Virus record (IMG/VR): IMGVR_UViG_3300044568_003096
Location: 1 to 25,776 of that record
Direction: 5' to 3' (one strand)
Length of the DNA stretch: 25,776 nucleotides
From: a virus
The notes under the pieces are model-generated. The model had not been told where the DNA came from. It did no database searches and saw nothing but the letters and a program-made list of their open reading frames with translations. The position numbers and the translations under genes are program-made. Positions 1 to 24,059 of the stretch are shown here, in pieces (positions within the stretch are counted from its first letter, which is position 1; the number at the start of each line of letters is the position of its first letter).

Positions 1-218
1 GAAAAATTAGTTCCAGGAGAATATCTAGATAAATGTTTTAATTTTTGTTCTGGTGTTAATGGGTTTTTCTTTAAATCATTAGTACCAGAAGCTATAACAT
101 TATGGTTAGCATTTTCTTTTTCTGCTATAGAACGAACGGTATTAATTAACTGTAAATGTCCAGTTGTAGGGGGATTCATTCTACCAAAAGCAGTAACTAC
201 AGGATTTTTAGTTGTCAT
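1..218 (-). CDS. TxGH nucleotidylyltransferase (cytidylyltransferase/NMNAT-like), N-terminal part only
   Basis: The reading frame starts at ATG 218-216 and runs open to the window edge, giving about 72 residues; the C-terminus lies outside. Residues 11-21 read FGRMNPPTTGH, the phosphate-binding TxGH signature of the nucleotidylyltransferase superfamily (CTP:glycerol-3-phosphate and NMN/pantetheine adenylyltransferases). It is followed by SGTNDLKKNPL, which I associate with phage members of this superfamily. The enzymes transfer AMP or CMP to a phosphorylated small molecule; the substrate here cannot be read from the fragment. The start codon shares one base with the TAA stop of the upstream gene (TAATG), so the two are translationally coupled and probably made late. 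The superfamily call is firm; NadM-like activity is only a possibility. Confidence 0.75.
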   Translation of the reverse strand, partial: MTTKNPVVTAFGRMNPPTTGHLQLINTVRSIAEKENANHNVIASGTNDLKKNPLTPEQKLKHLSRYSPGTNF

Positions 219-1390
219 TATCTTACCTTTAACAAATTAGCTTTAGAAAATTCTTCTCTATTAACAAGTTTAGATGGTTCACCATTATGATGAATAACAA
301 ATCCTTCTGGATCAGTTCTTTTATCGCCAATATGATGTTCTAAACCACCTTCATGTTGATTTAAAGTTTTAGTAAGAATATTTTTGGCATCTTGTAAATG
401 ACCATGCATTTTTAATAGATGATTATAATCATCAGAATTATTAGCAACATGATTTATATTACTAGTTAATTCAGTATGTTTTCTAGCTCTACCTGCGTCC
501 GTTTTTAATTTATCAATTTGCTTTTGAAACTTATCCGCTATATGATTTTGCAATCCATCTGCAGTTGGTTTCTCGCCAGTTCTAACAGTATGATTGATAT
601 ATGTATTCAAATAACCTTTATCTCCACCATGAGGAGCAGTTATATCATACATAGTATCTTTATGCGCTCCGTGAATTTTCTCAGCAGAATTCATATGTGA
701 ATTAAATTTAGCCTGATCGCCTTCACTATAATGAACATGTTTCGTATCGTGTTCTGGGGTTTTACTCCAAACATCTTCATGAGATTTAAAATTATGCAAA
801 TCTGGATGTGGGTCAGCTTTCATAGAAGATATTGTATTTCCATGATATTGAGTATGAGTAACAACACCTAATTTTGCATTTTTAATTTTATCTGCTTCTT
901 CGCCATGAGCAGTATATTTAATCGTATTTGGAGTAAATGATACAGAACCATTATCATTATGTTTTTTATCATCACCGCTAAACATTAAATCGCCTTGATA
1001 CACACCCTTTTTAGGAGTAATTTTAGGTAAATGTTCTAAAGAATCTTTTAATTTTTCAACCAACCCAGGAGCATGTCCGTGATTTTCTTCAATATCTTCT
1101 GGTGTATAATTAATTTTAGGGTTTTTATTAAATGCAGATTTACTAGCTACAAAAAATTTACCATTCTCTGGATGATACCCATATACAATGGAAGGAGATC
1201 CATCATATTTCATAGTAAGATTAGTGCTATGTTCACCAGACTTAATTGCTGTATGAGCATGATTTAATGCTCCCTTAGCATGATCATATCCATTTGCTCC
1301 CTCGAAAACTCTATCTTCTGGGTGCTTAATGTGCTTTAATTTAGCACCTTCTTCTTCACTTTCAACAATAAAATCTTTAAAACTTAGCAT
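218..1390 (-). CDS. Predicted capsid-targeted protein with ligase-like nucleotidyltransferase motifs (DUF6267-like)
   Basis: This 390-aa protein begins MLSFKDFIVE, close to the capsid-targeting leader of T4 internal proteins (MKTYQEFIAE in IPIII), which the gp21 prohead protease cuts after a hydrophobic-x-E site; cleavage after E10 would fit. The body carries motifs in the order of covalent nucleotidyltransferases (DNA/RNA ligase fold): KYDGS at 61-65 (motif I, candidate nucleotidyl-lysine K61), YQGDLMF at 131-137 (motif III-like), PEGFVIHH at 361-368 (motif IV-like) and SKLVN at 373-377 (motif V-like). About 9% of residues are histidine. I recall similar uncharacterised proteins in T4-like aquatic phages as DUF6267; that name needs checking. 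A perfect late promoter lies 33 bases upstream and GGGG sits 4 bases before the ATG. Family membership is fairly sure; enzymatic activity is inference. Confidence 0.72.
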   Translation of the reverse strand: MLSFKDFIVESEEEGAKLKHIKHPEDRVFEGANGYDHAKGALNHAHTAIKSGEHSTNLTMKYDGSPSIVYGYHPENGKFFVASKSAFNKNPKINYTPEDIEENHGHAPGLVEKLKDSLEHLPKITPKKGVYQGDLMFSGDDKKHNDNGSVSFTPNTIKYTAHGEEADKIKNAKLGVVTHTQYHGNTISSMKADPHPDLHNFKSHEDVWSKTPEHDTKHVHYSEGDQAKFNSHMNSAEKIHGAHKDTMYDITAPHGGDKGYLNTYINHTVRTGEKPTADGLQNHIADKFQKQIDKLKTDAGRARKHTELTSNINHVANNSDDYNHLLKMHGHLQDAKNILTKTLNQHEGGLEHHIGDKRTDPEGFVIHHNGEPSKLVNREEFSKANLLKVR

Positions 1391-1422: not shown

Positions 1423-1430
1423 TATTTATA
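1423..1430 (-). promoter_or_regulatory. T4-type late promoter TATAAATA
   Basis: The minus strand reads TATAAATA at 1430-1423, identical to the T4 late promoter consensus used by gp55 RNA polymerase with gp33 and the gp45 clamp. It immediately follows the stop codon of the epimerase gene and lies 33 bases before the start of the predicted capsid-targeted protein, so it would give a short leader starting near 1416. Late expression fits an internal virion protein. Confidence 0.7.
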
Positions 1431-1459
1431 TTATAACAGTTTTTCTTTAATCCAGTCAA
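1430..1459 (-). promoter_or_regulatory. Sigma70-like promoter overlapping the late promoter
   Basis: On the minus strand TTGACT (1459-1454) is followed after 18 bases by TATAAT (1435-1430). The -35 lies in the last codons of the epimerase gene and the -10 shares base 1430 with the late box. The -35 is embedded in TGCTTGACT, the same element seen at three other promoters in this window. It would allow transcription of the 218-1390 gene before the late phase. Confidence 0.5.
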
Positions 1460-2342
1460 GCACTTTTATTGTTGGTTTCCAATTTGTTGCAAATTTAAAT
1501 TTAGTATTATCAGATAAATTATTTAATACTTCACCAGCTGGTTTTTTGATATAAACTATACTATCAGATAATGTATTAGCAATCTGATTAATAGTATATG
1601 CTTCACCATAACCGATATTAAATACCTGAGCTTTCCACATATCTGGATTAGATTCAAAATGAGTAATGCAATCGATATTAGCCTGAACAACGTCAGTTAC
1701 ATGAATAAAATCTCTTTGTTGAGTTCCATCTCCAGTAACTGTTAAAGGTTTACTATCTTTTAATAATTTCTCAAAAATACCTAAAACTAATGCATACTGA
1801 CCAGACTTTGGAGAACGTTCGCCGTAAACATTAAAATAACGAAGAATAACTGATTTAATTCCATAGATTTCATAATAGTTTCTCAAAAATAATTCTGCTG
1901 CATATTTTGTTGATGCGTATGCATTTAAACAATTTTCTCTCTCAGTTTCTTTTAATGGGAAATTTGTATTTGATCCATAAATTGAAGATGTTGAAGAGAA
2001 AACAATACCTTTAATTTTATTTGCCCTTGCTGCTTCTAATATTGAAACAACGCCTTTAATGTTAGAATCAATTGCCTTTCTCGGATTAGCAATTGACGCA
2101 CCTAATCGAGATTCTGCAGCTAAATGAAAAATAAATTCACATCCGCGACTAATTGATGTTAATTTTTTAGTATCACAAACATCAAAATGATAATTGGTAA
2201 CATTTTTACTTTCATTAAAATAAAACTTATCATTATCTGCTGATAAGTCATCAATGTTAACAACAGTATAACCACAATTAACTAATAAATCAATTAAATG
2301 ACTACCAATAAAACCGCAACCACCAGTAACTAATACTTTCAT
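1431..2342 (-). CDS. NAD-dependent sugar-nucleotide epimerase/dehydratase (UDP-glucose 4-epimerase type SDR)
   Basis: Extended short-chain dehydrogenase of 303 aa. The Rossmann motif TGGCGFIG is at residues 6-13, the DD pair after beta-2 (31-32) fits NAD binding, and the catalytic pair YASTK gives Y142 and K146, with serines SSTSS about 25 residues before. RYFNVYG and the later QRDFIHVTDV are typical of the GalE/WbpP-like branch acting on nucleotide-linked hexoses. It probably makes a sugar donor for the neighbouring glycosyltransferases. Unlike the rest of the cassette it is separated from its upstream neighbour by 66 bases containing its own promoter, and its stop codon abuts the late promoter of the next gene. 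The exact substrate (UDP-Glc, UDP-GlcNAc, or a 4,6-dehydratase reaction) cannot be assigned; the absence of a clear dehydratase TDE triad favours an epimerase. Confidence 0.85.
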   Translation of the reverse strand: MKVLVTGGCGFIGSHLIDLLVNCGYTVVNIDDLSADNDKFYFNESKNVTNYHFDVCDTKKLTSISRGCEFIFHLAAESRLGASIANPRKAIDSNIKGVVSILEAARANKIKGIVFSSTSSIYGSNTNFPLKETERENCLNAYASTKYAAELFLRNYYEIYGIKSVILRYFNVYGERSPKSGQYALVLGIFEKLLKDSKPLTVTGDGTQQRDFIHVTDVVQANIDCITHFESNPDMWKAQVFNIGYGEAYTINQIANTLSDSIVYIKKPAGEVLNNLSDNTKFKFATNWKPTIKVLDWIKEKLL

Positions 2343-2360
2343 ATATCACCATTTATGTTA

Positions 2361-2390
2361 TAGATGCCTTATTATAATACAAAGCATCTA
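2361..2390 (-). repeat. Inverted repeat flanking the -10 box (possible operator)
   Basis: TAGATGC at 2361-2367 and its reverse complement GCATCTA at 2384-2390 are separated by 16 bases that contain the -10 box of the promoter for the epimerase gene. Arm centres are 23 bases apart, about two helical turns, as in operators bound by dimeric repressors. There is no T-run after it on the minus strand, so a terminator is unlikely. Confidence 0.35.
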
Positions 2391-2399
2391 TATTATCAA
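2371..2399 (-). promoter_or_regulatory. Sigma70-like promoter of the epimerase gene
   Basis: Minus strand TTGATA at 2399-2394, spacer of 17 bases, perfect TATAAT at 2376-2371; expected start near 2364, about 20 bases before the ATG at 2342. The -35 is within AGTGCTTGATA, matching the shared TGCTTGA element. This is the only intergenic gap over 50 bases inside the glycan region, which supports a real promoter. Confidence 0.7.
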
Positions 2400-2408
2400 G
2401 CACTTTTT

Positions 2409-3377
2409 TTAATTAAGGAAAACTTTTTTAAATTTTTCCATAACTGTATTTGGGTTAAATTGTTCTACCAGTTTAGAATAATTACCAGTATATGATTTAA
2501 CATTAAGTAACATATCATGCAATTCTTTTTCATCATTATATAACAAACCAGAATCTTTTAATAAATGTACATGATTTTTATCTCTACCGCCATTAAAACA
2601 AAATACAGGTTTATTATGCAATAATCCTTCACAAATAGCTAAACCAAATGATTCTCCATCACTTCTAGCATGAATCATAGCATCACAAGATAAAATAAAA
2701 TCAGTTTTTTCTTGTTCATCAATTATTGGATCAATAAATAAAATATTTGGTAATTCAACAAATTTAAAGGTATTAACAAATACAAAAACATAATTAGGGT
2801 TTTTAAACGCAAATTCAGCAACAGTTTGCATTACCGATCGAATATCAAATTGAAAGAAACCTCCAATTCTACCAATAACAATTTTATCTTTGCCTATTCC
2901 TAATTTTTCTTTAAAATCAATTTTTTGTTCTTTAGGTAAATCAACAATATGTGGAACATACTCAATTTTTCCATCACTTACATGATTTGATAGCCATTCA
3001 GAGATATAAGCATATCTATCCCCATGAGGCTGATTAGCTTGAAATACTGCATGCACTAAATTTTTAGATTTTGTTGTTAATATTCCATCATCAAACCCGC
3101 CTTTGATAAAATAAGTAGCATCAACATTATTATCAGCTACAATTTTATCTAGTTCAGCAAGGGAAGAATAACCAAATACTGGAAATTGTTTTTCAACTTC
3201 TTCTAATACATCTTGTTGAGTTAATGAATCTGAACTAACTCCTGGATCACTAAAATTTGAAGGATACACAATTATGCTTTCATTACCTAAAATTTCTTCA
3301 TTATATTTTGCGTAATCAAGAATTGCAACAGTAGTCCCTCTATGACACAGAGTATTTGATTGAAAAGCTATTTTCAT
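2409..3377 (-). CDS. GT-B fold glycosyltransferase, family 4-like
   Basis: This 322-aa protein has the C-terminal signature of retaining GT4 enzymes: SDGESFGLAICEG around residues 239-251, with the E-x7-E pair E242 and E250 that contacts the nucleotide sugar. The central stretch IVIGRIGGFFQFDI (166-179) is the usual start of the second Rossmann domain. The N-terminal half (about 1-150) is less typical and would bind the acceptor. It should transfer a hexose from a nucleotide sugar to a growing cell-surface glycan at the cytoplasmic face of the membrane. Its start overlaps the stop of the upstream gene by 4 bases (ATGA), so it is coupled to the cassette. It is the last gene of the run that starts behind gp41. 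Donor and acceptor are unknown. Confidence 0.8.
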   Translation of the reverse strand: MKIAFQSNTLCHRGTTVAILDYAKYNEEILGNESIIVYPSNFSDPGVSSDSLTQQDVLEEVEKQFPVFGYSSLAELDKIVADNNVDATYFIKGGFDDGILTTKSKNLVHAVFQANQPHGDRYAYISEWLSNHVSDGKIEYVPHIVDLPKEQKIDFKEKLGIGKDKIVIGRIGGFFQFDIRSVMQTVAEFAFKNPNYVFVFVNTFKFVELPNILFIDPIIDEQEKTDFILSCDAMIHARSDGESFGLAICEGLLHNKPVFCFNGGRDKNHVHLLKDSGLLYNDEKELHDMLLNVKSYTGNYSKLVEQFNPNTVMEKFKKVFLN

Positions 3378-4171
3378 TTAGGTAACATCCATAAAAATTT
3401 ATTCATTTCATTAGTTAAATCAGAAAATCTTTGCAATAATCTAGGAAAATTTAAATTTTCTGCAGGTAAATATTCTCTATACATTTGAATAAAACGTTCT
3501 CTAGTTAACCCATTTGGATTTTGTGCATCCGTATGCGCTCCGCCATTATATGCTAAACGTTCTGATTGGGGAATTCTATTTTGTATTTGTAGTTTTCTAG
3601 CATAGAATTTTTCTGTCATAGGAGCAAAACCATAATTAAAAATAATAAATCTATCAGTATTAATTAATCGCTTAAAATGTCTACCTAAAGGATAATATAG
3701 TTGATTAGTATGTAATGCTCGGGAACCTCTAAAATCAAATGTAAATGGAATATCTAATCCAGTTTTTATTACATCCCATAAATTATTTGTATATGGAATC
3801 TCTTCTGTTCTAAGTTCTTGATCATCAATAAAATACAAACATGGAACTAAAAGAGTCCCTTGTGTGTTAGTTAATGAATCATAATCACCAATCAAAAATT
3901 CAGTAACATTTAAAGCAATTTTCCATACATCATCACCATAAGTTGAAAGATATTCTTGGACTTCTCTATCAACAGCATGAGCAATAAAATCAGAATTTTT
4001 AGATTGAACAATATCCCAAGTTGGACAAATTTCTTTTATTATCTCAATAGATCTATCCGTTGATGCATAATCAATAATAACTCCATGATCAAAATATTTT
4101 TTATGGTGATTTAACCACCAAGGCAAAAGATATTCTTCATTATAAACGTGACTTACAATAACTTTTTTCAT
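3374..4171 (-). CDS. GT-A fold glycosyltransferase, GT2_4-like, with altered metal motif
   Basis: The N-terminus (HVYNEEYLLPWWLNHHKKYF, 8-27) followed by VIIDYASTDRS matches the glyco_tranf_2_4 / GT92-like family, where the loop after strand 2 carries the D-x-S-x-D-x-S pattern. In most relatives the second motif reads D-x-D-E-F; here the equivalent place reads ALNVTEFLIGD (near residue 90), so the first aspartates are absent while the E-F is kept. Either this subgroup binds the donor without the usual metal pair or it is altered in function. The C-terminal part contains GGAHTDAQN, a common feature of this family. It is 265 aa and translationally coupled on both sides. Family call moderately sure; substrate unknown. 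Confidence 0.65.
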   Translation of the reverse strand: MKKVIVSHVYNEEYLLPWWLNHHKKYFDHGVIIDYASTDRSIEIIKEICPTWDIVQSKNSDFIAHAVDREVQEYLSTYGDDVWKIALNVTEFLIGDYDSLTNTQGTLLVPCLYFIDDQELRTEEIPYTNNLWDVIKTGLDIPFTFDFRGSRALHTNQLYYPLGRHFKRLINTDRFIIFNYGFAPMTEKFYARKLQIQNRIPQSERLAYNGGAHTDAQNPNGLTRERFIQMYREYLPAENLNFPRLLQRFSDLTNEMNKFLWMLPK

Positions 4172-4615
4172 TTAAATTTCCACATAATCAACACAAATTC
4201 CATATATTTTTCTATTCGCATAAAAATTAAAATCAACATGTTTAGAAAAATCTAATATCACAATATTTTTATAATATTTTGCGTGCTTATCAGGATAAGC
4301 CCAAATAAATTCTTGTGATGTTAAAGTAACTTCATCTTGTTGATGCCAAAAATAATTAAATCCTAAATTATTAAATTTATATAGCGCATCTTGATTTTTA
4401 CAATGAATCCACAACCATTCTTTTCTCTCTAGTAAATACGAAAATGATATTTTATAAATTGGTTTATCATGCCCCAAATAAAAATTTTCGTCTATATACC
4501 AAACATCAATTTCAACATCATATCCTTTTGAAATGCATAAATTTATTTGATCCGGAGAATTTTCAGTCAAAAAATTTGGTCCATTTAAATTACCTCTATG
4601 TGCAATTATTTTCAT
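4172..4615 (-). CDS. GDPD-like (glycerophosphodiester phosphodiesterase superfamily) protein
   Basis: The preferred start is ATG 4615, giving 147 aa beginning MKIIAHRGN: it has GGAG 6 bases upstream and overlaps the preceding stop as ATGA. An ATG at 4651 is in frame but would add 12 residues not typical of the family. Conserved points of the PLC-like/GDPD TIM barrel are seen: H6-R7, E19 (TENSP), E35 and D37 (VEIDVW) and GHD at 48-50, then WIHCKN and YFWHQQD. It is shorter than classical GDPDs (about 240 aa) and matches a compact version found in polysaccharide gene clusters. The reaction in glycan assembly is not established; it could act on a glycerophosphate or phosphodiester-linked substituent. 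Confidence 0.7.
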   Translation of the reverse strand: MKIIAHRGNLNGPNFLTENSPDQINLCISKGYDVEIDVWYIDENFYLGHDKPIYKISFSYLLERKEWLWIHCKNQDALYKFNNLGFNYFWHQQDEVTLTSQEFIWAYPDKHAKYYKNIVILDFSKHVDFNFYANRKIYGICVDYVEI

Positions 4616-5343
4616 AAATAACTCCGTATTCCATTCTCTCTTTGTATGCATTCAAGTAAAGGTAATATATCTGCTGTAAGATTATTACTATCAATAGAAT
4701 ATTTCAACAACGAATGCGGTATATGTACACTACTTCTTTCGCTTGAATACGCATAAAATTCATTTATCATAAAATCAATAACATTAACAATATTTTTCTT
4801 TGTTGATATTATAATTTGATCGTTCACTTGCATTGATTCAGTATTTCTTTCTGTACTATTGCATACAACAATTTTTTCATGTATATTTGAAAAATTGATG
4901 CAAGATAAATCTTTGTGAATCAAATCAGTTCTAGTTTTGATAATTATATCATATGAAATATTATTATCAATTTCATATTGAGTAATTAAATCTAATCCTC
5001 TTTTAATTTTCCAAAATTGTAGAAAATGAGAAGAGTCCCCAAATAACATATTTTTATTAAATTTCTCAGATTCAGTAGTATAAATTTCTTCTGCGTATTG
5101 TTGATTATCTATTAATATATCTTTAATAGAAAAATCTACAAACTTATTTTTAATCTCTTCATCGTTTAATGCAATATCATTATGAAAATTTAGAGAACGT
5201 TTCATAAAATAGTGATATTGATGCGAATTATTATATGTAGAAACAAAATAATCAGGCGATAAAAATTTAAATGTATCTAATATATTTTGTTTACATAATT
5301 CTAAAGTTCGTACATTTCCTGCTAATAAAACAGCAACTTTCAT
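4612..5343 (-). CDS. Putative surface-glycan glycosyltransferase (LLSGNVRT-type, WavE-like)
   Basis: This 243-aa protein opens with VAVLLAGNVRTLELC, then DYFVSTYNN and later FLQFWKIKRGLDLI and YDIIIKTRTDLIHKDL. This set (GNxRT, FISTY-like, YDxIIKxRxDL) is what I associate with a family of LPS/capsule-cluster proteins such as WavE that are thought to be glycosyltransferases. No classical DxD is obvious except the RTDL stretch. It overlaps both neighbours by 4 bases. The role in glycan synthesis comes mainly from family resemblance and context; catalytic function is inferred. Confidence 0.55.
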   Translation of the reverse strand: MKVAVLLAGNVRTLELCKQNILDTFKFLSPDYFVSTYNNSHQYHYFMKRSLNFHNDIALNDEEIKNKFVDFSIKDILIDNQQYAEEIYTTESEKFNKNMLFGDSSHFLQFWKIKRGLDLITQYEIDNNISYDIIIKTRTDLIHKDLSCINFSNIHEKIVVCNSTERNTESMQVNDQIIISTKKNIVNVIDFMINEFYAYSSERSSVHIPHSLLKYSIDSNNLTADILPLLECIQRENGIRSYL

Positions 5344-6137
5344 TTAGAAAACTCCCGTAATGCTTGATGCCATTTATAAAATACATGATCCGCAAATAAA
5401 TTAGGCTGATCAAAATAACATTGCAGCCAAACTCCTTGTTCATCATCTGCAATTTCATTTTGTTGAAATATTAATAACCATTTATGACAAAGTTTTTGAA
5501 ATTCTTGCATTTTTTCTTTACTTGCCATAAAGAAATACGCTCCAATTTTTTCAGGAGCATATTGTAAGCTATAAATTACATCTTGATCCCTATCAGTAAT
5601 AGAATTAATTAAACAAATATTGACTTTGTTTAAATCAAATTTATTCAAATCTAAAGGTCCAGTAGGTAAAAATTCACCAGAAGTTTTTTTATAAAAATAA
5701 CCAAAATCGATCCACGCAACATAATCAGTATCAATTAAATTATTATCAATGGCATAATTAACAACATCTATTTTACTATGTGTTAATATTGTATATAAAG
5801 GATTAACATTTTCTGGGTAATTTTTATCTATTCTATGCTGTACTAATGATTGATATGTAAAACTAGACATAATTTCTTTTTCTCTATCTAATCTAGACCA
5901 AGACCAAAGATTAGACATAACCCATTCTTCGTTAATAGGAATAAGAGTTATTTTAGAACCAATAACCTTTTCTTGCAATTTATCAATATATTTGTCATCA
6001 ATAAACACAATCATTGTATAATCATAATCTAAAAATTTTTCAAAAGCTGAAATATATTCCTGAACTTTTCTAGGGTAAAGATTCCAATTTTCTCTTCCTA
6101 TATCATAAAACATTGATACTAATGTAATATCACTCAT
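5340..6137 (-). CDS. WlaTC/HtrL-like glycosyltransferase
   Basis: I use ATG 6137, giving 265 aa starting MSDITLVSMFYDIGRENW; it begins just before the stop of the upstream gene would clear (2-base gap), with AAGG about 10 bases upstream. An in-frame ATG at 6200 would extend into the preceding gene and adds 21 basic, low-complexity residues. TLVSMFYDIGR, the YISAFEKFL stretch, the MIVFIDDKYID strand and the central YVAWIDFGYF resemble the WlaTC/HtrL glycosyltransferase family, found in Campylobacter LOS loci and many phages. WIDFG takes the position of the DxD-like motif. It likely adds a sugar to the same surface glycan. It overlaps the next gene by 4 bases. Substrate unknown. Confidence 0.65.
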   Translation of the reverse strand: MSDITLVSMFYDIGRENWNLYPRKVQEYISAFEKFLDYDYTMIVFIDDKYIDKLQEKVIGSKITLIPINEEWVMSNLWSWSRLDREKEIMSSFTYQSLVQHRIDKNYPENVNPLYTILTHSKIDVVNYAIDNNLIDTDYVAWIDFGYFYKKTSGEFLPTGPLDLNKFDLNKVNICLINSITDRDQDVIYSLQYAPEKIGAYFFMASKEKMQEFQKLCHKWLLIFQQNEIADDEQGVWLQCYFDQPNLFADHVFYKWHQALREFSK

Positions 6138-6139
6138 TT

Positions 6140-7522
6140 TTAATTTACCTTTTTTAATTTTAAAAATGTATTCAAATCTTCTGGGGTTCCAATTCCCCAC
6201 ATTTCTTGCACATAGCTAACTTTAATTTTTTTATTATCAGAAATAGCTTCATTAATTACTGGACAAACATAAAATTCATTATTAACCCTAATATTTTTTT
6301 CTATCATTTGTTCAGCATATTTGATATAATCAGAACCTTTAGCCCAATAATAAACTCCAACACTAGCTATATTACTAATTGGATCTTTTTCAGCTACTTG
6401 CTCAACAAACCCATCTAAACCAAGTTTAGCGAAACTCCATTTAGGGTGAACTGCATTAAATACTAACATACCACCATCAATGTCATTATTAGAAAAAGAA
6501 TACATAGTTTCATTTGAATTCCATTCAATATATTGATCAGAATTTGCAATTAATAATGGATTATCATTATCTATAAATTCTTTAGCAAGTAATGTTGTGC
6601 AAGCAGCTCCTTCAGTTAAACCATCAATAACAACAATTTTACAATTAGGTTTAATTAGATTGAGCAAATGTTTAATGTTATATTTTTCTAAATGTTCTTG
6701 TTGTACAACAAAAATATAATTAGCATCAATATTTAAATTGTCAACTACAACCTGAATCATTGGCTTACCATTAACATCAATTAATGGTTTAGGAAAAGTA
6801 TATCCTTGTTGAGAGAAACGCGAGCCTAAACCAGCCATTGGAATTAATACATTTAATTTCGCATCAATCCAAGGAATAGTATTTTCTTTTGTAACAGAAT
6901 TAATCTCATTTATTTTCATTTCAATTTTAGCCAATGATAAATCATTTGTATTTTCAACTGCCAATAAATTAGCTCCAGAATCTAAAGCTCCTTTTCTACC
7001 AATATGACTATCTTCAACAATAAGGGTGCTTTTTGGAATAGCGTTTAAAGCTGTCATACATTTCCAATACATTTCAGGAAATGGTTTTGGTTTAGTAACA
7101 TCTTCATTACTAACGTAATAATCAACATATTCTAAGATACCAAGTTTTAATAGACATAATTTAACCGATTCTCTAATTGAGTTTGTAGCTACAGCAATTT
7201 TAATATCTTTTGTTTTTAACCAAGAAAATATACTAATAAGTTTAGAACTTGGTTGTATTTGTTTTAATATATCAAATGTAGCATATTGTTTATCATTCCA
7301 AATTTGATCAAAATATTTTTTTTCTAAACCTTTATTAATTGAAAGCAATTCTAATTTTTTCGTGGTTGTTAATCCATCATATTTACTCAAATGCTCATCA
7401 ATTGATATTACATATTCATTACCAATCTTTAATAAAGCATCATTTAATGCAGTATAATGCCAATCCTTAGATTCAACTAAAACTCCATCCAAATCAAATA
7501 TCACTAATTTATTATAATTCAT
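6140..7522 (-). CDS. Bifunctional HAD phosphatase - sugar nucleotidyltransferase fusion
   Basis: Two enzymes are fused in 460 aa. Residues 1-200 are a HAD hydrolase: motif I DLDGV with D10 and D12, motif II VATNS (111-115), the lysine of motif III in TKPKPFP (143-149) and motif IV VEDSHIG (169-175). Residues 223-460 are an NTP-transferase: LNVLIPMAGLGSRF (223-236) is the nucleotide-binding loop and FPKPLIDVNGKPMI (243-256) the following signature; NSDQY is the metal-binding region and WGIGTPEDL near the end is the usual closing motif. The pair would dephosphorylate a sugar phosphate and activate a sugar-1-phosphate with a nucleotide, feeding the glycosyltransferases. AAAGG precedes the ATG by 6 bases. 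Which sugar and which nucleotide cannot be told. Confidence 0.85.
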   Translation of the reverse strand: MNYNKLVIFDLDGVLVESKDWHYTALNDALLKIGNEYVISIDEHLSKYDGLTTTKKLELLSINKGLEKKYFDQIWNDKQYATFDILKQIQPSSKLISIFSWLKTKDIKIAVATNSIRESVKLCLLKLGILEYVDYYVSNEDVTKPKPFPEMYWKCMTALNAIPKSTLIVEDSHIGRKGALDSGANLLAVENTNDLSLAKIEMKINEINSVTKENTIPWIDAKLNVLIPMAGLGSRFSQQGYTFPKPLIDVNGKPMIQVVVDNLNIDANYIFVVQQEHLEKYNIKHLLNLIKPNCKIVVIDGLTEGAACTTLLAKEFIDNDNPLLIANSDQYIEWNSNETMYSFSNNDIDGGMLVFNAVHPKWSFAKLGLDGFVEQVAEKDPISNIASVGVYYWAKGSDYIKYAEQMIEKNIRVNNEFYVCPVINEAISDNKKIKVSYVQEMWGIGTPEDLNTFLKLKKVN

Positions 7523-7537
7523 ATAAAACCTTTATAT

Positions 7538-8254
7538 TTAAGCATAATTATGTATTAATACATCTCCATTATAATTATCTGTATTAATTTCAGTTAAACT
7601 TGGATCTGGGTCAGAACAAGAAACATATTGATTCACAATAAAACCTAAAAATCCTTCTCCATCAAAATATCTATCTGAATGTAAATAAACTTTATCTAAT
7701 AATCCTAAATCGCATATATTTTTATGAACTTGCATCTCAAAATTAGCATGCCACACTTCAGGTTTTTCTAAAGAAAATGCCTGTTTGAAGAAATCAATTT
7801 CACAATAATATGCAAGAGTTCCTACAGTAATTTGTTTATTACCCCATCCATTAGAAATAAGGCGTTTGTCATAATTATCGCATATATATTGACATCTTTG
7901 TATTAATTCGTTATAATCTAAAGTTGAATCGCAATCATAAGCTAATTTAAAAATATGAGTAAACCCAAGTCTTTGTAAATAATTAACTGCATTATGCATA
8001 CTAGTTAATTCAGCCATACCATGAGTTAATTTATCTTTAGGCAATCCATTTATTTGGAAACTATTATCTGAATCATAAATAAACGCATTACAATATTGTT
8101 GCGTTTCTATATCAATTGGGCTATGCGAAACTAAACAAATATAATATGAAGTATTTTCGGATATTACCTTACAAAGATTTTTAGTTATAGAAGCTTTAAC
8201 ATCTGAATATTCTCCGCCTGTGTATGTTGCAATAACTATTGCTGCTTTATGCAT
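7538..8254 (-). CDS. Probable GT-A type glycosyltransferase
   Basis: This 238-aa protein starts with a strand and loop like GT-A enzymes (AAIVIATYTGGEYSDVKASI, 4-23), where the next element would bind the nucleotide. FTHIFKLAYDCDST (98-111) places a D-x-D (D107, D109) after a hydrophobic strand, as in metal-dependent family 2-like transferases. A C-terminal SDRYFDGEGFLG stretch may contribute the acceptor side. I do not recognise a named family. Position inside the cassette, 15 bases before the HAD fusion gene and 7 bases after the upstream gene, supports a glycan role. Confidence 0.5.
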   Translation of the reverse strand: MHKAAIVIATYTGGEYSDVKASITKNLCKVISENTSYYICLVSHSPIDIETQQYCNAFIYDSDNSFQINGLPKDKLTHGMAELTSMHNAVNYLQRLGFTHIFKLAYDCDSTLDYNELIQRCQYICDNYDKRLISNGWGNKQITVGTLAYYCEIDFFKQAFSLEKPEVWHANFEMQVHKNICDLGLLDKVYLHSDRYFDGEGFLGFIVNQYVSCSDPDPSLTEINTDNYNGDVLIHNYA

Positions 8255-8261
8255 TTTTCAC

Positions 8262-8963
8262 CTATAATAATTTTAAATTTGATTTTCTATTCATATAAAA
8301 ATGTTTCTTATATGAATATTCTATCGGTTGTTCAGCCCATCCATCAAAATCTGAATCATAATACAAATCAAAATCTACGTTCAGCAAATCAGCCATTACA
8401 GCAATTCCAGTAAAAGTAGAGATAAATTTACCGCATTTTTTTATTATGTTTGCATTATGCATACAACTTTTAGAATAATCAATAAAATAACAATCATTAA
8501 ATTTACCAGAATCATATAATATTCCGCTTGGGCGAGATTTATCATTTGTTGATAATAAACACCTATCTCCAACATAAAATAATCCAGAACAATCAATATC
8601 TATATCTTGAATTTTTAAAATATAATCATTATCAATATCAAAATTTATACCATACAATCCAAACTTTTTTTGATATCTTGTTGTTTCCATTGGAGCAATT
8701 CCATCATATATAGGATCAACCCAACTATTAAATGGAATAAAATCTCGTTTTTCTTCAATAGGAACTTCATGATCAAATTTAACCCAGTCAATAAAATCTT
8801 GATATTCTATTAGTTCTCTTATTCCATTAAATTTAATCATATCTGATTGTAATATCAATTGTATTTTATGATTAAACGTTTTACTCATACCAGATAAAAC
8901 GGGAAGGGAATTTAAAAAATCTCCTAAATTTGATGTTCCAATATCTCCATATAATTTTATCAT
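8262..8963 (-). CDS. GT9/heptosyltransferase-like protein
   Basis: At 233 aa the protein is shorter than usual heptosyltransferases (about 320-350 aa). Its start, MIKLYGDIGTSNLGDFLNSL, resembles the G-x-G-D acceptor loop of GT9 enzymes followed by the PVL helix, and the C-terminal ISTFTGIAVMADLLNVDFDLYY looks like the usual S-x-x-T-G-x-x-x-x-A donor-binding helix. The middle part is reduced. It may transfer a heptose or similar sugar in a GT-B fold, or be a degenerate relative of the GT9-like protein encoded two genes upstream (9574-10296). It overlaps the methyltransferase gene by 4 bases. Confidence 0.5.
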   Translation of the reverse strand: MIKLYGDIGTSNLGDFLNSLPVLSGMSKTFNHKIQLILQSDMIKFNGIRELIEYQDFIDWVKFDHEVPIEEKRDFIPFNSWVDPIYDGIAPMETTRYQKKFGLYGINFDIDNDYILKIQDIDIDCSGLFYVGDRCLLSTNDKSRPSGILYDSGKFNDCYFIDYSKSCMHNANIIKKCGKFISTFTGIAVMADLLNVDFDLYYDSDFDGWAEQPIEYSYKKHFYMNRKSNLKLL

Positions 8964-9580
8964 ATTTTCTTATATACGCATGTTAAAATATTAGAATATT
9001 CTTCATTATTTTTTCTTATGGTATCTTCAATATTAGTATAAGAAACTAAAGCAAAACCAGAATCTTTCATAAAATTATCTAAAGATTCTTTATTAAAATG
9101 CCATATATGTTCATTGGGTCTTCTATGTTTCCATGTAGCAAACCAGTCATCAGAAAAATAATGGCATTCAGGAACCGATATACAAATATAATTACACTTT
9201 AAATCTTTAACAAAAGATATATCGTCAAAATGTTCTAATGAATCAAAAAAAGTAATTACATCAAAAAAAGAATCTAAATTATATAATTTTTCACAAGAGT
9301 TTGGCAAAGGATAATCAGAAACATCAAAACCATAACATTTTGTATTATTTTTAGAACAAACTTTTAAAAAAGCTCCATTACCATACCCAACATCGACTAT
9401 TGATTCTGGAATTCTACCTAAAACTCCAACTAAATAGCCATATCTTAAATATGACATATAATTAGTCAATTCTCCATAAGAATCATATCTTACTCTCGAA
9501 TAATTTAAACTATAATCAATGTTTTCAGTAATTTCATTTTGTTTAATAACTTTATTAACTATCTCATAATTTTCTAACAT
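8960..9580 (-). CDS. SAM-dependent methyltransferase, class I
   Basis: Rossmann-like methyltransferase of 206 aa. Motif I IVDVGYGNGAFL (61-72) binds S-adenosylmethionine, GFDVSD (84-89) gives the acidic residue (D86) that holds the ribose, FFDVITFFDSLEHFDD is motif IV with the usual D-S-L-E-H, and HRRPNEHIWHFNKESL is typical of the Methyltransf_23 type found in polysaccharide clusters. It probably methylates a sugar hydroxyl or a terminal residue of the glycan, which in O-antigens often caps chain growth. It overlaps the upstream gene by 7 bases and the downstream gene by 4. Confidence 0.75.
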   Translation of the reverse strand: MLENYEIVNKVIKQNEITENIDYSLNYSRVRYDSYGELTNYMSYLRYGYLVGVLGRIPESIVDVGYGNGAFLKVCSKNNTKCYGFDVSDYPLPNSCEKLYNLDSFFDVITFFDSLEHFDDISFVKDLKCNYICISVPECHYFSDDWFATWKHRRPNEHIWHFNKESLDNFMKDSGFALVSYTNIEDTIRKNNEEYSNILTCVYKKI

Positions 9581-10296
9581 AAATTTTCACCAAAATAAGT
9601 TCCTTCACAATCTAACCAATATGTTCTTATCTCATTATTAAATAAAGAATAAAATGGAGTTGTGTGTAATAACCCTCTAGAAGAATAATAATAACGTTTT
9701 TTTAATGGACCTCTATCTAAAGCTGAAGCAAAATGACTTGTTCCAGTATCTCCTCCAACAAATATTTCACAATCTAATATATGAGAAATATTTTCCATAA
9801 AATCTACGCTAATATCAAACCCATTAGGAATATCTATATTTTTTATAAATGATTTATCTGAAATGCAAATAACCTTTTCATATCCATCATATTTGGAATA
9901 TTTAGCTAAAATATCAACAAATACATGAGGTGGCCAATTTCTATAAGTATTATATGGAGCATCAAATATAGGAAAAATTGCTATTTTCTTTTTTATATCT
10001 TTTTGATTTTTTATTTTAATCAAATCTCCAGATATAGCTCTAAAATCCCATAAATTTACTTTTCTCCAATTTAATAACAAGTCTCCTGGAGATATAGAAA
10101 AATAATCAGTATTTTCCAATAAAAAATTAAAAAATTTCTTAGAATATTCTTCTGAATTTACAGAACCTTCCATCATATGAAATTTAACTGGCAAATTATA
10201 TATTTTTCGTAAATATTCAATAATATTACAAGCACCAAGTAAATCACCATTTCGCAATGGACCGCCGAAAACTTCTTTAACTATATTTACAATCAA
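9574..10296 (-). CDS. GT9-family (ADP-heptose transferase-like) glycosyltransferase, TTG start
   Basis: A GT-B protein of 240 aa. FVGGDTGTSHFASAL (179-193) is the donor-site signature of heptosyltransferase-like GT9 enzymes, where the G-D-T-G-x-x-H helix binds the nucleotide; IAIFPIFDAPYNTYRNWPP (106-124) is the start of the second domain, with the N-x-W-P of the family. The first codon is TTG (10296-10294); AGGTGA sits 5 bases before it and no in-frame ATG or GTG precedes it. An overlapping ATG in the leader is in another frame and stops after two codons. It is likely to add a heptose-like residue to core or O-chain sugars. Confidence 0.7.
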   Translation of the reverse strand: MIVNIVKEVFGGPLRNGDLLGACNIIEYLRKIYNLPVKFHMMEGSVNSEEYSKKFFNFLLENTDYFSISPGDLLLNWRKVNLWDFRAISGDLIKIKNQKDIKKKIAIFPIFDAPYNTYRNWPPHVFVDILAKYSKYDGYEKVICISDKSFIKNIDIPNGFDISVDFMENISHILDCEIFVGGDTGTSHFASALDRGPLKKRYYYSSRGLLHTTPFYSLFNNEIRTYWLDCEGTYFGENLC

Positions 10297-10304
10297 AACA
10301 TCAC

Positions 10305-11120
10305 CTATATTATCAATTTATCAATAATATTATATATTGAATATTTTTTAACATATCCTAAAGATTTAATTTTACTTATATCCAAAACCATATCTTTAGT
10401 TTGAACTTTTTTGTGGAAATCAACAACTTCTATAGAATTTATTTCTGATTTAGAATTTAATTTATCTTTAGCATAATAAATTATATCCTTAAAATTAACA
10501 AATTCTCCGTTACCAACATTATAAATTTGATCTAAATCTCCTTTATCTAATATCAAATTTATGGCATCAATTGCATCATCAACATAAATATAATCTCTAT
10601 ATAGATCTCCCCCATTATATAAACTAATAGGTTTATTTTCTTTAATTTCATTTATTAGAAATTGAAGAGCATTTTTTTGTTTAGATACCTTTTTATCAGA
10701 TTCACCAAGAATATTAGCCAAACGTAATATTCTATATTTTATACCGAATGTTTCGCAATAAGAAATTAATAACTGTTCAGCAGTTCTTTTTGTTATACTG
10801 TAAAACCCTTTTGGGTCACAATAAGAATTTTCTCTAGCGGGTAAATCAACATTACCATAAACAAACCAAGAACTAATAAAATTAAATGTTACATCTTTAT
10901 TTTTACAATTTTCCAAAACTTTAATAAGAGTTATTAAATTTGTATCTATATCAAGATAAGGATCAGTAAAAATATTATAATTGTGTACTGTTGAAATAAA
11001 ATATAATATATTTTTAGATTTAACTGAAAAATCGTCTCTATCGTTCTTAATGACGTTGGGCGTCATTTCACAATAACGCCCCCCTACAAATCCATTTCCA
11101 CCCAATACATTTACTTCCAT
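10305..11120 (-). CDS. SDR-family NAD(P)-dependent reductase/epimerase (CDP-abequose/paratose synthase-like)
   Basis: Extended SDR of 271 aa, on the short side for the family. The cofactor motif is NVLGGNGFVGG (4-14), the catalytic pair FYSITK gives Y107 and K111, and FISSWFVYG supplies the serine. DLYRDYIYVDD (about 175) is the usual C-terminal substrate-domain motif. It overlaps the RfbH-like gene directly upstream by 10 bases. In Salmonella and Yersinia the product of RfbH and its reductase is reduced at C4 by an SDR (RfbJ abequose or RfbS paratose synthase), so this gene is a good candidate for that last step. The assignment rests on adjacency plus fold; it could instead be a general 4-epimerase. 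Confidence 0.7.
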   Translation of the reverse strand: MEVNVLGGNGFVGGRYCEMTPNVIKNDRDDFSVKSKNILYFISTVHNYNIFTDPYLDIDTNLITLIKVLENCKNKDVTFNFISSWFVYGNVDLPARENSYCDPKGFYSITKRTAEQLLISYCETFGIKYRILRLANILGESDKKVSKQKNALQFLINEIKENKPISLYNGGDLYRDYIYVDDAIDAINLILDKGDLDQIYNVGNGEFVNFKDIIYYAKDKLNSKSEINSIEVVDFHKKVQTKDMVLDISKIKSLGYVKKYSIYNIIDKLII

Positions 11121-12394
11121 TCTTTACATACTCCCTCAATATAATTTAAAATTTTATCATTATATAATGGGGAACATCCTAAGAAAAATACATTACTTAA
11201 TGCTAAATTAGAATTAGGGTATTTTTTATAATCATCTAAATGCTTATATCCAGGATGCAATAAAATATTTCCGCTAAAATAATTTCTTGTTTGAATTTTA
11301 TTATCTTCAAAATACTTAACTAATTTTTCTTTTAATTGTTGAGAGTCGCAAAACACAGGAACTCCGAACCAAGATGGATCTGACTTTTCTGTTGCGTTAA
11401 TTACTCTGGCTCCTGGAATATTAGATTCGATATATGTTTGAATTATTTGTTTATATTCTCTACGTTTAGACTCAAGATAATCAAACTTTTCTAACTGTTC
11501 AATACCAATTGCTCCTTGTAAATCCAGCGGTTTTAAATTATACCCCATTGTTGCAAAAACATATTTATGATCAACAATACCATCGTAATTTTCTAACCAA
11601 TTATCAAATCTATTTCCGCAAGTTCCACAAGCTAAAAGATTATTTTGTCCTACACAATAACAATCTCTACCCCACCATGTAATACTTTTTGCAATTTTAA
11701 TTAATTCTAAATCATTAGAACAAACCATTCCGCCTTCGCCAGTAGAAATATGATGAGCCGGATAAAAAGAAGTAGTCCAAGCATAATAATAATCAGTAAT
11801 TAAATTACCATTCCAATTCGTACCTAATGAATCGCAATTATCCCCAAGTAAAGTAATATTATATTTTAAACATAATTCCGTTAATTTATCTATATCTGGA
11901 GGATTACCTAAAACTGGAGAAACAAAAATTGCTTTTGTTTTTGACGTAATTTTTTCTTCAATTAAATCAACATTAAAGTTTAGTGTATCTAATTCAATGT
12001 CAATAAAAACTGGTACTAATCCATTTTGCGAAATTGGAGCTATTGTTGTAGGAAATCCAACAGGAGAAACAATAATTTCATCTCCATCTTTCCAATTTAA
12101 ACGTTTTTTTACTGCAGAAATTAAAACTAAGTTTGCAGAACTACCGCTATTAACCATTTGAGAATATTTAACATTAAATCTTTTGCTAAACTTTTTTTCA
12201 AACTGTGCAACTTTAGTACCAGAAGTCACCCAATTACCATTTAAAAATGTATCTAATGCAGCATAAATTTCTTGATGATCCCATAATTGACCAGAGTATT
12301 GTATAAAGTCGCCATCTTTATAATCATCATAATTTTTGATATATTTTGGTGTTACATTTAGTGATAGTAATTCAATTATTTTTTGTATATTCAT
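11111..12394 (-). CDS. rfbH: RfbH-like CDP-4-dehydro-6-deoxyglucose 3-dehydrase (E1 type)
   Basis: A 427-aa DegT/AspC-fold PMP/PLP enzyme, the size of E1. Three features separate it from ordinary sugar aminotransferases. First, SFYPAHHISTGEGG (209-222) has histidine (H214/H215) where aminotransferases carry the PLP-binding lysine. Second, cysteines C245, C247, C256 and C259 occur in GRDCYC and ACGTCGNRFD, matching the E1 region that binds a [2Fe-2S] cluster. Third, DHKYVFATMGYNLKPLDLQ follows as in RfbH. GDNCDSLG (184-191) supplies the aspartate for the cofactor pyridine nitrogen. The enzyme removes the C3 hydroxyl from CDP-4-keto-6-deoxyglucose on the way to 3,6-dideoxyhexoses. RfbG, RfbF and the E3 reductase (RfbI) are not in this window, so they must come from elsewhere in the phage or from the host. 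Confidence 0.88.
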   Translation of the reverse strand: MNIQKIIELLSLNVTPKYIKNYDDYKDGDFIQYSGQLWDHQEIYAALDTFLNGNWVTSGTKVAQFEKKFSKRFNVKYSQMVNSGSSANLVLISAVKKRLNWKDGDEIIVSPVGFPTTIAPISQNGLVPVFIDIELDTLNFNVDLIEEKITSKTKAIFVSPVLGNPPDIDKLTELCLKYNITLLGDNCDSLGTNWNGNLITDYYYAWTTSFYPAHHISTGEGGMVCSNDLELIKIAKSITWWGRDCYCVGQNNLLACGTCGNRFDNWLENYDGIVDHKYVFATMGYNLKPLDLQGAIGIEQLEKFDYLESKRREYKQIIQTYIESNIPGARVINATEKSDPSWFGVPVFCDSQQLKEKLVKYFEDNKIQTRNYFSGNILLHPGYKHLDDYKKYPNSNLALSNVFFLGCSPLYNDKILNYIEGVCKEWK

Positions 12395-12403
12395 AATATT
12401 AGT

Positions 12404-13063
12404 TTATAATAAAATTGATGGAATCATACCATCGGTTGTAAACGTTCCATTTACTATATCGTCACAGCGTTTCTTAAATAAATCGAGGTTTTGTTGATAT
12501 CTACCTTGATATAAATGATAGATAGAATCACCAAATAAAGTTCCTATACCAAAATTACCATAATTACTTAATCGCCAAACACCCTCAATAGGTTTTCTTT
12601 CAAAGTAAGTAGGATAAATTGCGTGATAAAATACTTTATTTTTTTCTGCTACATGAGAAATTTCCTCAGCAATATCAGACCTTGGGTTTTCAACAAAGGA
12701 CGGTTTACCTAAATCATTCCAACATTTTCTCGAAATAAAGAAAAACCCTGGACCAGCAAAAATATGATTATATGGATATATGTGATTAGAAGATTGCGCA
12801 ATACCAACAAAAGTTCCGGATTTAACAATATCTTCTATTACAGTTTCTATAATTTGTTTATTTAATGGAACACAATCGTTATCTAAAAACCCAATAATAT
12901 CCGATTTAGAATGTTCTAAAATATAATCCATCCATAATCCTGGATTAACTCCGTCAAGATTATGATAGTTTACAGGAATATTTAAATACTCCATAACTTT
13001 TTTATGCGACTCAATTAAATACAAACCATTATTCCAATATAATGTATTAATCTCCACTTTCAT
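12404..13063 (-). CDS. GT-A type glycosyltransferase (DND motif)
   Basis: This 219-aa protein has SDIIGFLDNDCVPLNKQII (54-72) with a D-N-D (D61, D63) after a hydrophobic strand, the donor/metal site of GT-A enzymes. NHIFAGPGFFFISRKCWNDLG is the next conserved block, as in galactosyltransferase-like proteins where a G-x-x-x-F-x-x-R-x-x-W follows the catalytic site. The N-terminal strand (EINTLYWNN) is atypical, so the family remains open. It is separated by 9 bases from the RfbH-like gene downstream and overlaps the cupin gene upstream by 4 bases. Confidence 0.65.
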   Translation of the reverse strand: MKVEINTLYWNNGLYLIESHKKVMEYLNIPVNYHNLDGVNPGLWMDYILEHSKSDIIGFLDNDCVPLNKQIIETVIEDIVKSGTFVGIAQSSNHIYPYNHIFAGPGFFFISRKCWNDLGKPSFVENPRSDIAEEISHVAEKNKVFYHAIYPTYFERKPIEGVWRLSNYGNFGIGTLFGDSIYHLYQGRYQQNLDLFKKRCDDIVNGTFTTDGMIPSILL

Positions 13064-13404
13064 AAAAAATTCTCACTAGGGATTACTCTATATGAATCTT
13101 CGTCCATATCTTTTGTTGAAAATTCAATAATATCTGAATCTTCTAATCCAATAATTTGGTGGCGTAATCCAGGAGGTAAATAAAATGTATCGCCTTGATT
13201 TAAATCTATAGTATCAGTATAAAACTCATCAGTTAGCGAATAGTTAATTCTAACCTTACCATTTAACACATAAAAAGTTTCATCTTTAATCTTATGATAG
13301 TGAAATGAACCTTTTTTATCTTTATTTACATGAATAATCTTACCGCAATATAAATCTGTATTAACAATAATATTTTCATATCCCCACAATTTTTCAACTA
13401 TCAT
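13060..13404 (-). CDS. Cupin protein (mannose-6-phosphate isomerase type II / ManC C-domain-like)
   Basis: Single-domain cupin of 114 aa. It starts KLWGYENIIVN and YCGKIIHV, as do the phosphomannose isomerase-like cupins. Metal ligands are visible: H35 and H37 in FHYHKIKDETFYVLNG with E42, and H82 in PPGLRHQI. Such small proteins occur beside sugar-nucleotide genes and may isomerise or epimerise a sugar phosphate; standing alone it may also be an accessory binding protein. The gene overlaps the downstream glycosyltransferase by 4 bases and the upstream one by 11. Confidence 0.75.
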   Translation of the reverse strand: MIVEKLWGYENIIVNTDLYCGKIIHVNKDKKGSFHYHKIKDETFYVLNGKVRINYSLTDEFYTDTIDLNQGDTFYLPPGLRHQIIGLEDSDIIEFSTKDMDEDSYRVIPSENFL

Positions 13405-14116
13405 TTTTACTCCATGGATATTTTGTATATTTTTCTTTCATTAAAGTATTTCCATGCTCAAAGAATTCTTTAGTAACAGAACCTTCATTACCATCAAGTC
13501 TATAGTTTAGAGAATAATAACCAGAACAAGAAAAGTTAGGAAAATACTGTTTTAATGCTTGAAATACAACTCTATCTTGACCCCAGCCACCGTGCCAAGC
13601 TCCAGCAATTGTTACAGCAACTTTATTTGTAAAACAATAACAATTAGTATCTATATGATAACAATTAGTCCAAGCTTCCCATTTACCTAAACTTTCACAG
13701 TCATCTTTACAAATAAATTCTTCTTGCTTATCAAAAATATTACGCAAACTATAAACCCAATCTGATTTTGTTGATTCCAATTCAGTAATCATAGTTTCTA
13801 TATGATTTGGAGCAAACCAATTATCTTGGTCCAAAAAGAAAATATAATCTTCATCAAGTAAATGCGAATATGCTGCATAAATTCTATGACCATAAAACCC
13901 ATTAGCTCCAACATTTTCTTGTAAATAGTCGACACGAATAGGAACATTAAATCCCTTACCTAAAAGCATCTTTTTAACTTTAGAAAAAAACTGTTTACCA
14001 TCAACAACAATATGAACTGTTACATTTTTATAAGACTGCTCAGCAATACTCTGAATAGATCGTATAAGAGTATCAGATCCTGTTGTTGGAATTATTACTA
14101 CTGCACTTTTCGTCAT
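13394..14116 (-). CDS. Family 2-like glycosyltransferase
   Basis: Classic GT2-like protein of 240 aa: AVVIIPTTGSDTLIRSIQSI (5-24) binds the nucleotide, VHIVVDG (34-40) is the second strand with its aspartate, and YIFFLDQDNWFAPNHIE (91-107) holds the D-Q-D metal motif (D96, D98). WHGGWGQDRVVFQAL later matches the E/QDR catalytic-base area. It is the first gene of the glycan cassette and its start overlaps the stop of helicase gene 41 by 4 bases (ATGA), so ribosomes can pass straight from the replisome gene into the sugar genes. Substrate unknown. Confidence 0.8.
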   Translation of the reverse strand: MTKSAVVIIPTTGSDTLIRSIQSIAEQSYKNVTVHIVVDGKQFFSKVKKMLLGKGFNVPIRVDYLQENVGANGFYGHRIYAAYSHLLDEDYIFFLDQDNWFAPNHIETMITELESTKSDWVYSLRNIFDKQEEFICKDDCESLGKWEAWTNCYHIDTNCYCFTNKVAVTIAGAWHGGWGQDRVVFQALKQYFPNFSCSGYYSLNYRLDGNEGSVTKEFFEHGNTLMKEKYTKYPWSKNDS

Positions 14117-21337: not shown

Positions 21338-21604
21338 TTAGTCACCAGCAAAAACGTTATCTGAACCCGTTGCTGGGTGACCGCAATTAGCAATATCGCC
21401 AGCTCGGCATAAAGGTTTACCATTAACAAATACAGTTCCTGAACCTTGTATCATTATTGGTCCATCATGAGGAGCTAATCCAATATGCCCTGCTACTGCG
21501 TCGTCTTTTCTAACAGCAGCTTTATTATTAACAAAAACATCAGGCGAACCCTGAATAAGATTCGCCCCAGCTAAGTCAGTTTCTTTCCTAGTAACTCCAG
21601 GCAT
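21338..21604 (-). CDS. PAAR-domain spike-tip protein (gp5.4-like)
   Basis: I use ATG 21604 (88 aa); an in-frame TTG one codon earlier is less likely, since the ATG overlaps the upstream stop as TGATG and GGAG lies 5 bases before. Two repeats typical of PAAR proteins are seen: GSPDVFVNNKAAVRKDDAVAGH and GSGTVFVNGKPLCRAGDIANCGHPATGS. Candidate metal ligands are the His of AGH, the His of APHDG and the Cys/His of NCGH near the end. PAAR proteins cap the gp5 needle and sharpen the tail tip; T4 gp5.4 is the example. Its place between regA and hsp20, far from other tail genes in this window, is notable. Confidence 0.9.
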   Translation of the reverse strand: MPGVTRKETDLAGANLIQGSPDVFVNNKAAVRKDDAVAGHIGLAPHDGPIMIQGSGTVFVNGKPLCRAGDIANCGHPATGSDNVFAGD

Positions 21605-23960: not shown

Positions 23961-23995
23961 AATATAAACTCCAAAATAAAAATAATAATAAATAA

Positions 23996-24027: not shown

Positions 24028-24059
24028 CTAAACATTTAACGCACAATCAGGAGACTGTA

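Follow-up and report, generated by a model that had tools for sequence, protein, structure and literature searches.

The gene at 218-1390 of the 25,776-nt stretch of viral DNA analysed in this work (hereafter the window; IMG/VR record IMGVR_UViG_3300044568_003096) raises the question of what its product does and whether that product is carried inside the virion. An earlier interpretation (hereafter the sequence-only reading) had proposed that the product is a ligase or another nucleotidyltransferase that is injected at infection. The interpretation that we favour, with a little more belief than doubt, is that the protein belongs to a family of divergent lysyl-NMP polynucleotide ligases that would act inside the infected cell in most members and would be packaged and ejected in the lineage of the window.

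The window protein is a full-length member of the DUF6267 family (PF19782; E 2.9e-100, 336.7 bits against a curated cut-off of 27, residues 19-387), which is its sole Pfam match, and it also matches phrog_455 (E 4.4e-96). The records of PF19782 and phrog_455 assign no function, and neither a function for DUF6267 nor a paper naming it was found in the literature and profile libraries searched (Pfam, PHROG). The family is therefore one without an assigned function, as the sequence-only reading had stated. The coordinates of the gene and its features are shown in Table 1.

Homologues of DUF6267 were identified by tblastn in 470 of 50,697 phage records, all at less than 60% identity. They come mostly from phages of Synechococcus and Prochlorococcus, and also from HTVC008M, Melnitz, DLP6, and one Pseudoalteromonas phage. 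DUF6267-bearing viruses number in the hundreds, infect bacterial hosts, and occur in marine and freshwater environments, and the gene occupies a single locus per genome in the DUF6267 phage records tested. Four scans of IMG/VR yielded 320 loci that were divided into four groups. Group A consists of window-like loci (60-88% identity), group B of cyanophage loci similar to S-RSM4, group C of Melnitz-like loci, and group D of DLP6-like loci. The members of a compact subfamily (P-SSM2, S-SM2, ACG-2014f, and gp87 of S-CREM2) have about 300 aa; they retain the invariant residues described below, and their insertion is much shorter. The DUF6267 frames of four group C loci (L215, L235, L241, and L245) start about 115 aa further upstream with a common extension (MITQSDLNQVEKFADRLF...), which is either a fusion or an overlong frame. 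The window protein is also histidine-rich as had been claimed (36 of 390 residues). The mean histidine content of its clade is 9.4%; the other clades have 1.4-2.5%, and nine further proteins of the window 1.0-3.1%.

Table 1. Coordinates and strand of the DUF6267 gene of the window and of the features in and around it.
Feature	Position	Strand	Basis or remark
DUF6267 (PF19782) ligase-fold protein CDS	218..1390	(-)	390 aa, ATG; ORF call, Pfam, phrog_455
Capsid-targeting-like leader MLSFKDFIVE, residues 1-10, predicted prohead-protease cut after E10	1361..1390	(-)	T4 IPIII positions, profile
Motif I K61-Y-D-G64, predicted lysine nucleophile K61	1199..1210	(-)	K61, D63, G64 invariant in 324/324
K84, motif Ia-like basic residue (motif assignment inferred)	1139..1141	(-)	Invariant in 324/324
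Motif III-like Q132-G-D134	989..997	(-)	Invariant in 324/324; model strand 130-138
Helical insertion, residues ~219-345, between motifs III and IV	356..736	(-)	Model secondary structure versus compact model
Motif IV E362-G-F-V365	296..307	(-)	E362, G363, V365 invariant in 324/324
Motif V-like K374-L-V-N-R378-E-E-F381	248..271	(-)	K374, R378, F381 invariant in 324/324
T4-type late promoter TATAAATA	1423..1430	(-)	Exact match, 40 nt upstream of ATG
HIGH-superfamily nucleotidyltransferase, NMNAT/cytidylyltransferase-like (GRMNPPTTGH)	1..218	(-)	Downstream, overlaps (TAATG), runs off window edge

The four motifs that the sequence-only reading had placed in the order of covalent nucleotidyltransferases were all located in that order, at residues 61-65 (KYDGS), 132-137 (QGDLMF), 361-366 (PEGFVI), and 373-377 (SKLVN). 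The conservation of these motifs was assessed from an alignment of 324 full-length homologues and from 58 representatives at less than 75% identity. K61, D63, G64, K84, Q132, G133, D134, E362, G363, V365, K374, R378, and F381 are identical in all 324 homologues and in all 58 representatives, and N155 and H179 are identical in all 324 homologues. K61 had been expected to be conserved and is so throughout. Chance cannot give such invariance of the motif positions. The invariant set includes the positions required by a covalent nucleotidyltransferase, namely KxDG, motif III, EGxV, and motif V. QGD (132-134), EGxV (362-365), and K374 lie inside or at the ends of strands predicted by the model of the window protein, and motifs I, III, IV, and V are retained in the compact subfamily.

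The AlphaFold2 model of the window protein has a pLDDT of 91.9 and a pTM of 0.88. The top PDB matches of this long model in the Foldseek search were CorA and carbonic anhydrase (E 0.1-0.2), which were set aside as uninformative, and two capping-enzyme entries and an NAD-ligase domain were found at E 1.2-2.0. The helical insertion (residues 219-345) probably explains the poor PDB ranking of the long model, and a compact homologue (L350, pLDDT 92.0) was therefore modelled. Each of the 22 best PDB matches of the compact model is a DNA or RNA ligase. They include archaeal and human DNA ligases, T4 Rnl2, Naegleria Rnl, TbREL1, and Trl1, where the archaeal DNA ligases outrank the RNA ligases. The best match has E 0.0082 and a probability of 0.82, none reaches 0.001 or below, and the TM-scores are low (0.14-0.30). 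The individual match statistics are weak and the relation to ligases is therefore distant; the unanimity of ligases among the best matches is nevertheless not noise. The search of a viral fold library with the same model placed an RNA ligase at rank 19 (E 7.6e-4) followed by many RNA ligases, and ranks 1 to 18 went to different phage proteins, among them several that are uncharacterised or are cytidyltransferase-like fusions. The proposed nucleotidyltransferase relation is thus recovered in the fold of the compact model.

No sequence link to ligase families was found by HMMER, hhalign, PDB sequence search, Pfam, or NCBIfam, and PF09414, PF01068, and PF01653 are absent among the 25 families listed in a Pfam scan of 77 DUF6267 members. 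The comparison by hhalign against the T4 Rnl2 and LigA profiles gave no match, and the control pair of T4 Rnl2 and LigA likewise gave none with the same profiles, so this test is without power. Neither an OB-fold nor another C-terminal ligase domain was found in the window protein, where nine residues follow F381 and the model ends in one terminal helix.

An intact 207-aa relative of the NMNAT-like gene downstream of DUF6267 (L002:6173-6796) matches PF01467 (E 3.2e-7). A HIGH-superfamily nucleotidyltransferase lies directly 3' of DUF6267 in all 69 group B loci with downstream room and within 4 kb of it in most loci of the other groups, and both domains form one 591-aa protein in S-PM2, a natural fusion. 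The best NCBIfam matches of the NMNAT-like partner all fall below cut-off and are for the most part NMN/NaMN adenylyltransferases, and the PDB search with this partner returned no relevant match. PD-(D/E)XK-like proteins, assigned by the pattern E...D...SxK, are encoded at most two genes away in 48/50 (B), 33/48 (D), 18/28 (C), and 15/42 (A) of the loci with enough flank. These upstream partner families have no confident Pfam match, and hhalign aligns some pairs of families but not others. One 197-aa PD-(D/E)XK-like protein (L334:4842-5435), also with no Pfam match, overlaps the end of a compact DUF6267 gene. The DUF6267 group of cyanophages follows gp43, uvsX, gp41, and mazG. A run of sugar or nucleotide-sugar and glycosyltransferase-like genes (1431-14116) separates DUF6267 from the replicative helicase gene (14113-15510) in the window, and a similar helicase-like protein is encoded one to three genes upstream of DUF6267 in groups C and D. 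Two other frames of the window were noted by eye. The frame at 23946-24671 (+), antisense over the start of a clamp-loader-like gene, is possibly a GIY-YIG homing endonuclease, and the 89-aa product of 21338-21607 (-) resembles a PAAR-type spike tip.

The first 10 residues of T4 IPIII are enough for head entry, and mutations have assigned its residues 4 and 7 to targeting and its residues 8 and 10 to processing (PMC9026906). The window protein agrees at all four mutation-defined positions (F4, F7, I8, and E10), and the confidence of its model is low at residues 8-16. The window leader scores 17.9 on a leader profile built from the family, to whose training set the window is close. In a 126-kb relative, none of the 1462 internal-Met segments scores 8 or more. 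The pattern at the key positions 4, 7, 8, and 10 is kept in each of the 35 distinct leaders found in the window's clade. Groups A, C, and D exhibit a leader of the T4 kind ahead of the conserved domain. The leader is absent from group B, whose proteins start with MANIKQLKH or close variants, and from the compact members, which start directly at the domain. A gp21-type prohead protease (PF03420) is present in all five relatives tested, including the one that is 88% identical.

The distribution of the late promoter is also uneven. The window has three exact copies of TATAAATA, where chance alone would give 10.4. The promoter is found at most 80 nt upstream in 44 of 49 distinct upstream regions of group A, the window's clade, compared with 3 of 980 control segments, and in 18/60, 3/62, and 0/58 distinct upstream regions of groups C, D, and B, respectively. 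The sequence-only reading was therefore right on both the T4-type capsid-targeting leader and the perfect late promoter.

Published virion proteomes of S-CREM2 (PMC10665884) and S-SZBM1 (PMC9146016) were compared with the leader profile. Five of the six annotated S-CREM2 genes with a leader score of at least 6.5 are present in the virion, compared with 47 of 213 (Fisher p 0.003), an enrichment that is suggestive because the cut of 6.5 was picked after the scores were seen. The five are gp154 (cytidylyltransferase), gp14 (APH-like kinase), gp6 (SAM hydrolase), gp136, and gp13, and the one missing from the virion proteome is gp100. The profile, which was built from DUF6267 leaders, separates the virion genes of S-CREM2 better than a loose leader regular expression does (4/8 versus 46/207 detected, p 0.087). 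The virion of S-SZBM1 contains gp140 (cytidylyltransferase, MRFRQFIIEA), which is encoded by the gene after DUF6267. The small proteins gp191 and gp192, whose leader scores are higher than that of gp140, were not detected in it. The leaderless DUF6267 proteins (S-CREM2 gp87 and S-SZBM1 gp141) are missing from both virion lists. The absence of the leaderless homologues from the lists and the presence of gp140 agree with the leader being a packaging signal.

Leader-like starts were also observed in other proteins. The SAM hydrolase gp6 and the APH-like kinase gp14 are virion enzymes of S-CREM2 (OR473000, L336) that carry the leader, and a stretch similar to the leader (LRFASFMAEA) occurs close to the start of gp12, which is annotated as Cas9. 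Such leaders may account for the presence of non-structural enzymes in the S-CREM2 virion. In the 126-kb relative (G001, L545-L551), capsid-targeting-like starts are present in six of the nine ORFs whose histidine content is 6.5% or more and in none of 87 others, where the total is approximate. One of its proteins (L546:4391-5260, 289 aa, leader MKTFKQFIFES) has a sub-threshold match to the ADP-ribosyltransferase exoenzyme family PF03496 (E 4.8e-4) and is a possible counterpart of T4 Alt. Another (L545:4098-5798, 566 aa, leader MLRFKSFLTEA) is similar at its start to the group A family of PD-(D/E)XK-like partners.

The leader is absent in group B and in the compact members, the late promoter is absent in group B, and the leaderless proteins are not in the two proteomes; packaging would therefore be an addition specific to the lineage of the window and not the core function of DUF6267. 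The ligase-type fold, K61, the leader, and the promoter lend partial support to the injected ligase or nucleotidyltransferase of the sequence-only reading for the window itself, and the proposal is too broad for the family, of which group B and the compact members are leaderless.

The mechanism that we propose would begin with the attack of K61 on ATP, or less likely on NAD+, to give a lysyl-NMP, so that K61 would be adenylylated if ATP is used. The NMP would be passed to a 5'-phosphate end, which would then be sealed to a 3'-OH. Most Kyanoviridae would use DUF6267 inside the infected cell, often beside replication, PD-(D/E)XK-like, and NMNAT-like genes. The protein would be made late in the window's phage and drawn into the prohead core through its leader, the gp21-type protease would cut it after E10 with the loss of ten residues, and it would be ejected with the DNA to act on nicks or breaks of the incoming genome or on host nucleic acid. 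The weak fold statistics, the missing sequence link, the uninformative ranking of the long model, the lack of a C-terminal ligase domain, and the non-detection in virions of the leaderless DUF6267 proteins and of gp191 and gp192 speak against this interpretation. The use of NAD+ with recycling of NMN by the NMNAT-like partner would be an attractive though speculative variant. A more elaborate version, which we consider rather improbable, makes DUF6267 the overlooked ligase of Kyanoviridae that lack gp30. In the lineage of the window it would be carried by the virion and ejected with the genome, accompanied by a PD-(D/E)XK-like protein that also bears a leader, and the NMNAT-like partner (fused in S-PM2) may recycle NMN to NAD+, which would give an NAD+-dependent ligation module that recycles itself.

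The protein could instead be mainly the intracellular replication or repair DNA ligase of the phage that replaces T4 gp30, with a leader that adds packaging or is inconsequential. None of PF01068, PF01653, and PF09414 was found in 14 of 17 DUF6267-bearing records, several of which are IMG/VR records that may be incomplete, and each has one DUF6267 locus. T4 exhibits the reverse, with PF01068 and PF09414 present and DUF6267 absent. The gene gp30 has been listed with the quasicore genes, a set of which cyanophages lack many members (PMC2993671), and it is hypothesised that DUF6267 fills the gp30 gap. The position of DUF6267 after gp43-uvsX-gp41-mazG and the lack of both leader and late promoter in the cyanophage clade point in the same direction. 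However, PF01068 is also found in three of the 17 records (DLP6, G006, and G007), together with PF09414 in G007 (PF01653 in none), replication could be served by the host ligase, and the late promoter and leader of the window's clade are no early replication profile. We regard this role as credible though doubtful.

A role in RNA repair, in which an Rnl2-like ligase reseals host or phage RNA cut by defence nucleases with a P-loop kinase as the end-healing partner, is unlikely. The best ligase-named match in the viral fold library is an RNA ligase, and the best PDB matches include T4 Rnl2 and further RNA ligases, but the archaeal DNA ligases rank above them there. A zeta-toxin/AAA_33 P-loop kinase is encoded nearby in HTVC008M, whereas the kinase match in the window's relative (L002) is weak. 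Transfer of the NMP to a protein or a small molecule (AMPylation or capping) by an injected host modifier like T4 Alt is quite unlikely. The lack of a recognised nucleic-acid-binding OB domain, the capping enzyme among the weak fold matches, and the second leader-bearing protein of a relative with its weak ADP-ribosyltransferase match are consistent with it, but the top fold matches are ligases rather than capping or AMPylating enzymes and the PD-(D/E)XK-like neighbours point to nucleic acid. Finally, sequence similarity to ligases that is not significant and the low TM-scores could mean that the motifs are coincidental, in a protein that has an unrelated fold or is an inactive structural head protein. 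This is very improbable given catalytic motif positions invariant in 324/324 homologues and ligases in 22/22 matches of an unbiased fold search.

If DUF6267 is indeed a divergent polynucleotide ligase, a gene that is very widespread among cyanophages would acquire a function that can be tested, and the sealing of DNA in T4-like phages that lack gp30 could be explained. With its leader-bearing branch, the family would supply the first candidate, to our knowledge, for a ligase that virions deliver. Phage proteins that are packaged and ejected could be predicted cheaply with the leader profile, which was compared with a published proteome. The view of DUF6267 as a new family of divergent ligase-type enzymes, one branch of which is targeted to the capsid, is supported in part; catalysis and packaging are predictions.

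Compared with DUF6267 and phrog_455 at large, the window protein is full-length and keeps every catalytic-like position, and its clade has in addition the leader, the late promoter, and the unusual histidine content. DUF6267 and T4 Rnl2 with the other PF09414 and PF01068 ligases have in common the motif order I, III, IV, and V and the fold found by Foldseek, and EGYVLKP and IKCKNSKFS of T4 Rnl2 resemble EGFVI and KLVNREEFS of DUF6267. Unlike the Rnl2-type ligases, DUF6267 has a helical insertion between motifs III and IV, G-D rather than G-E in motif III, no sequence-level match, and no C-terminal ligase domain. The KxDG motif and the nucleotidyltransferase fold are also common to DUF6267 and LigA, and the conserved N-terminal segment with His and acidic residues and the NMNAT-like partner could suit the use of NAD+. 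DUF6267 differs from LigA in having no PF01653 match and no OB, zinc, HhH, or BRCT domains.

The packaging features are closest to those of T4 IPI-IPIII and Alt, which like the window protein have a 10-residue leader with aromatic residues at 4 and 7, an aliphatic residue at 8, and Glu at 10. The late promoter is also found in the window and the gp21-type protease in its relatives. Unlike these T4 proteins, the window protein is neither a small basic internal protein nor an ADP-ribosyltransferase, and its presence in virions is a prediction. The cytidylyltransferase or NMNAT-like proteins S-SZBM1 gp140, S-CREM2 gp154, and S-SCSM1 ORF91 exhibit the HIGH-superfamily fold, unlike DUF6267, but gp140 and gp154 carry a leader of the same kind as the window DUF6267, and all three proteins have been found in virions.
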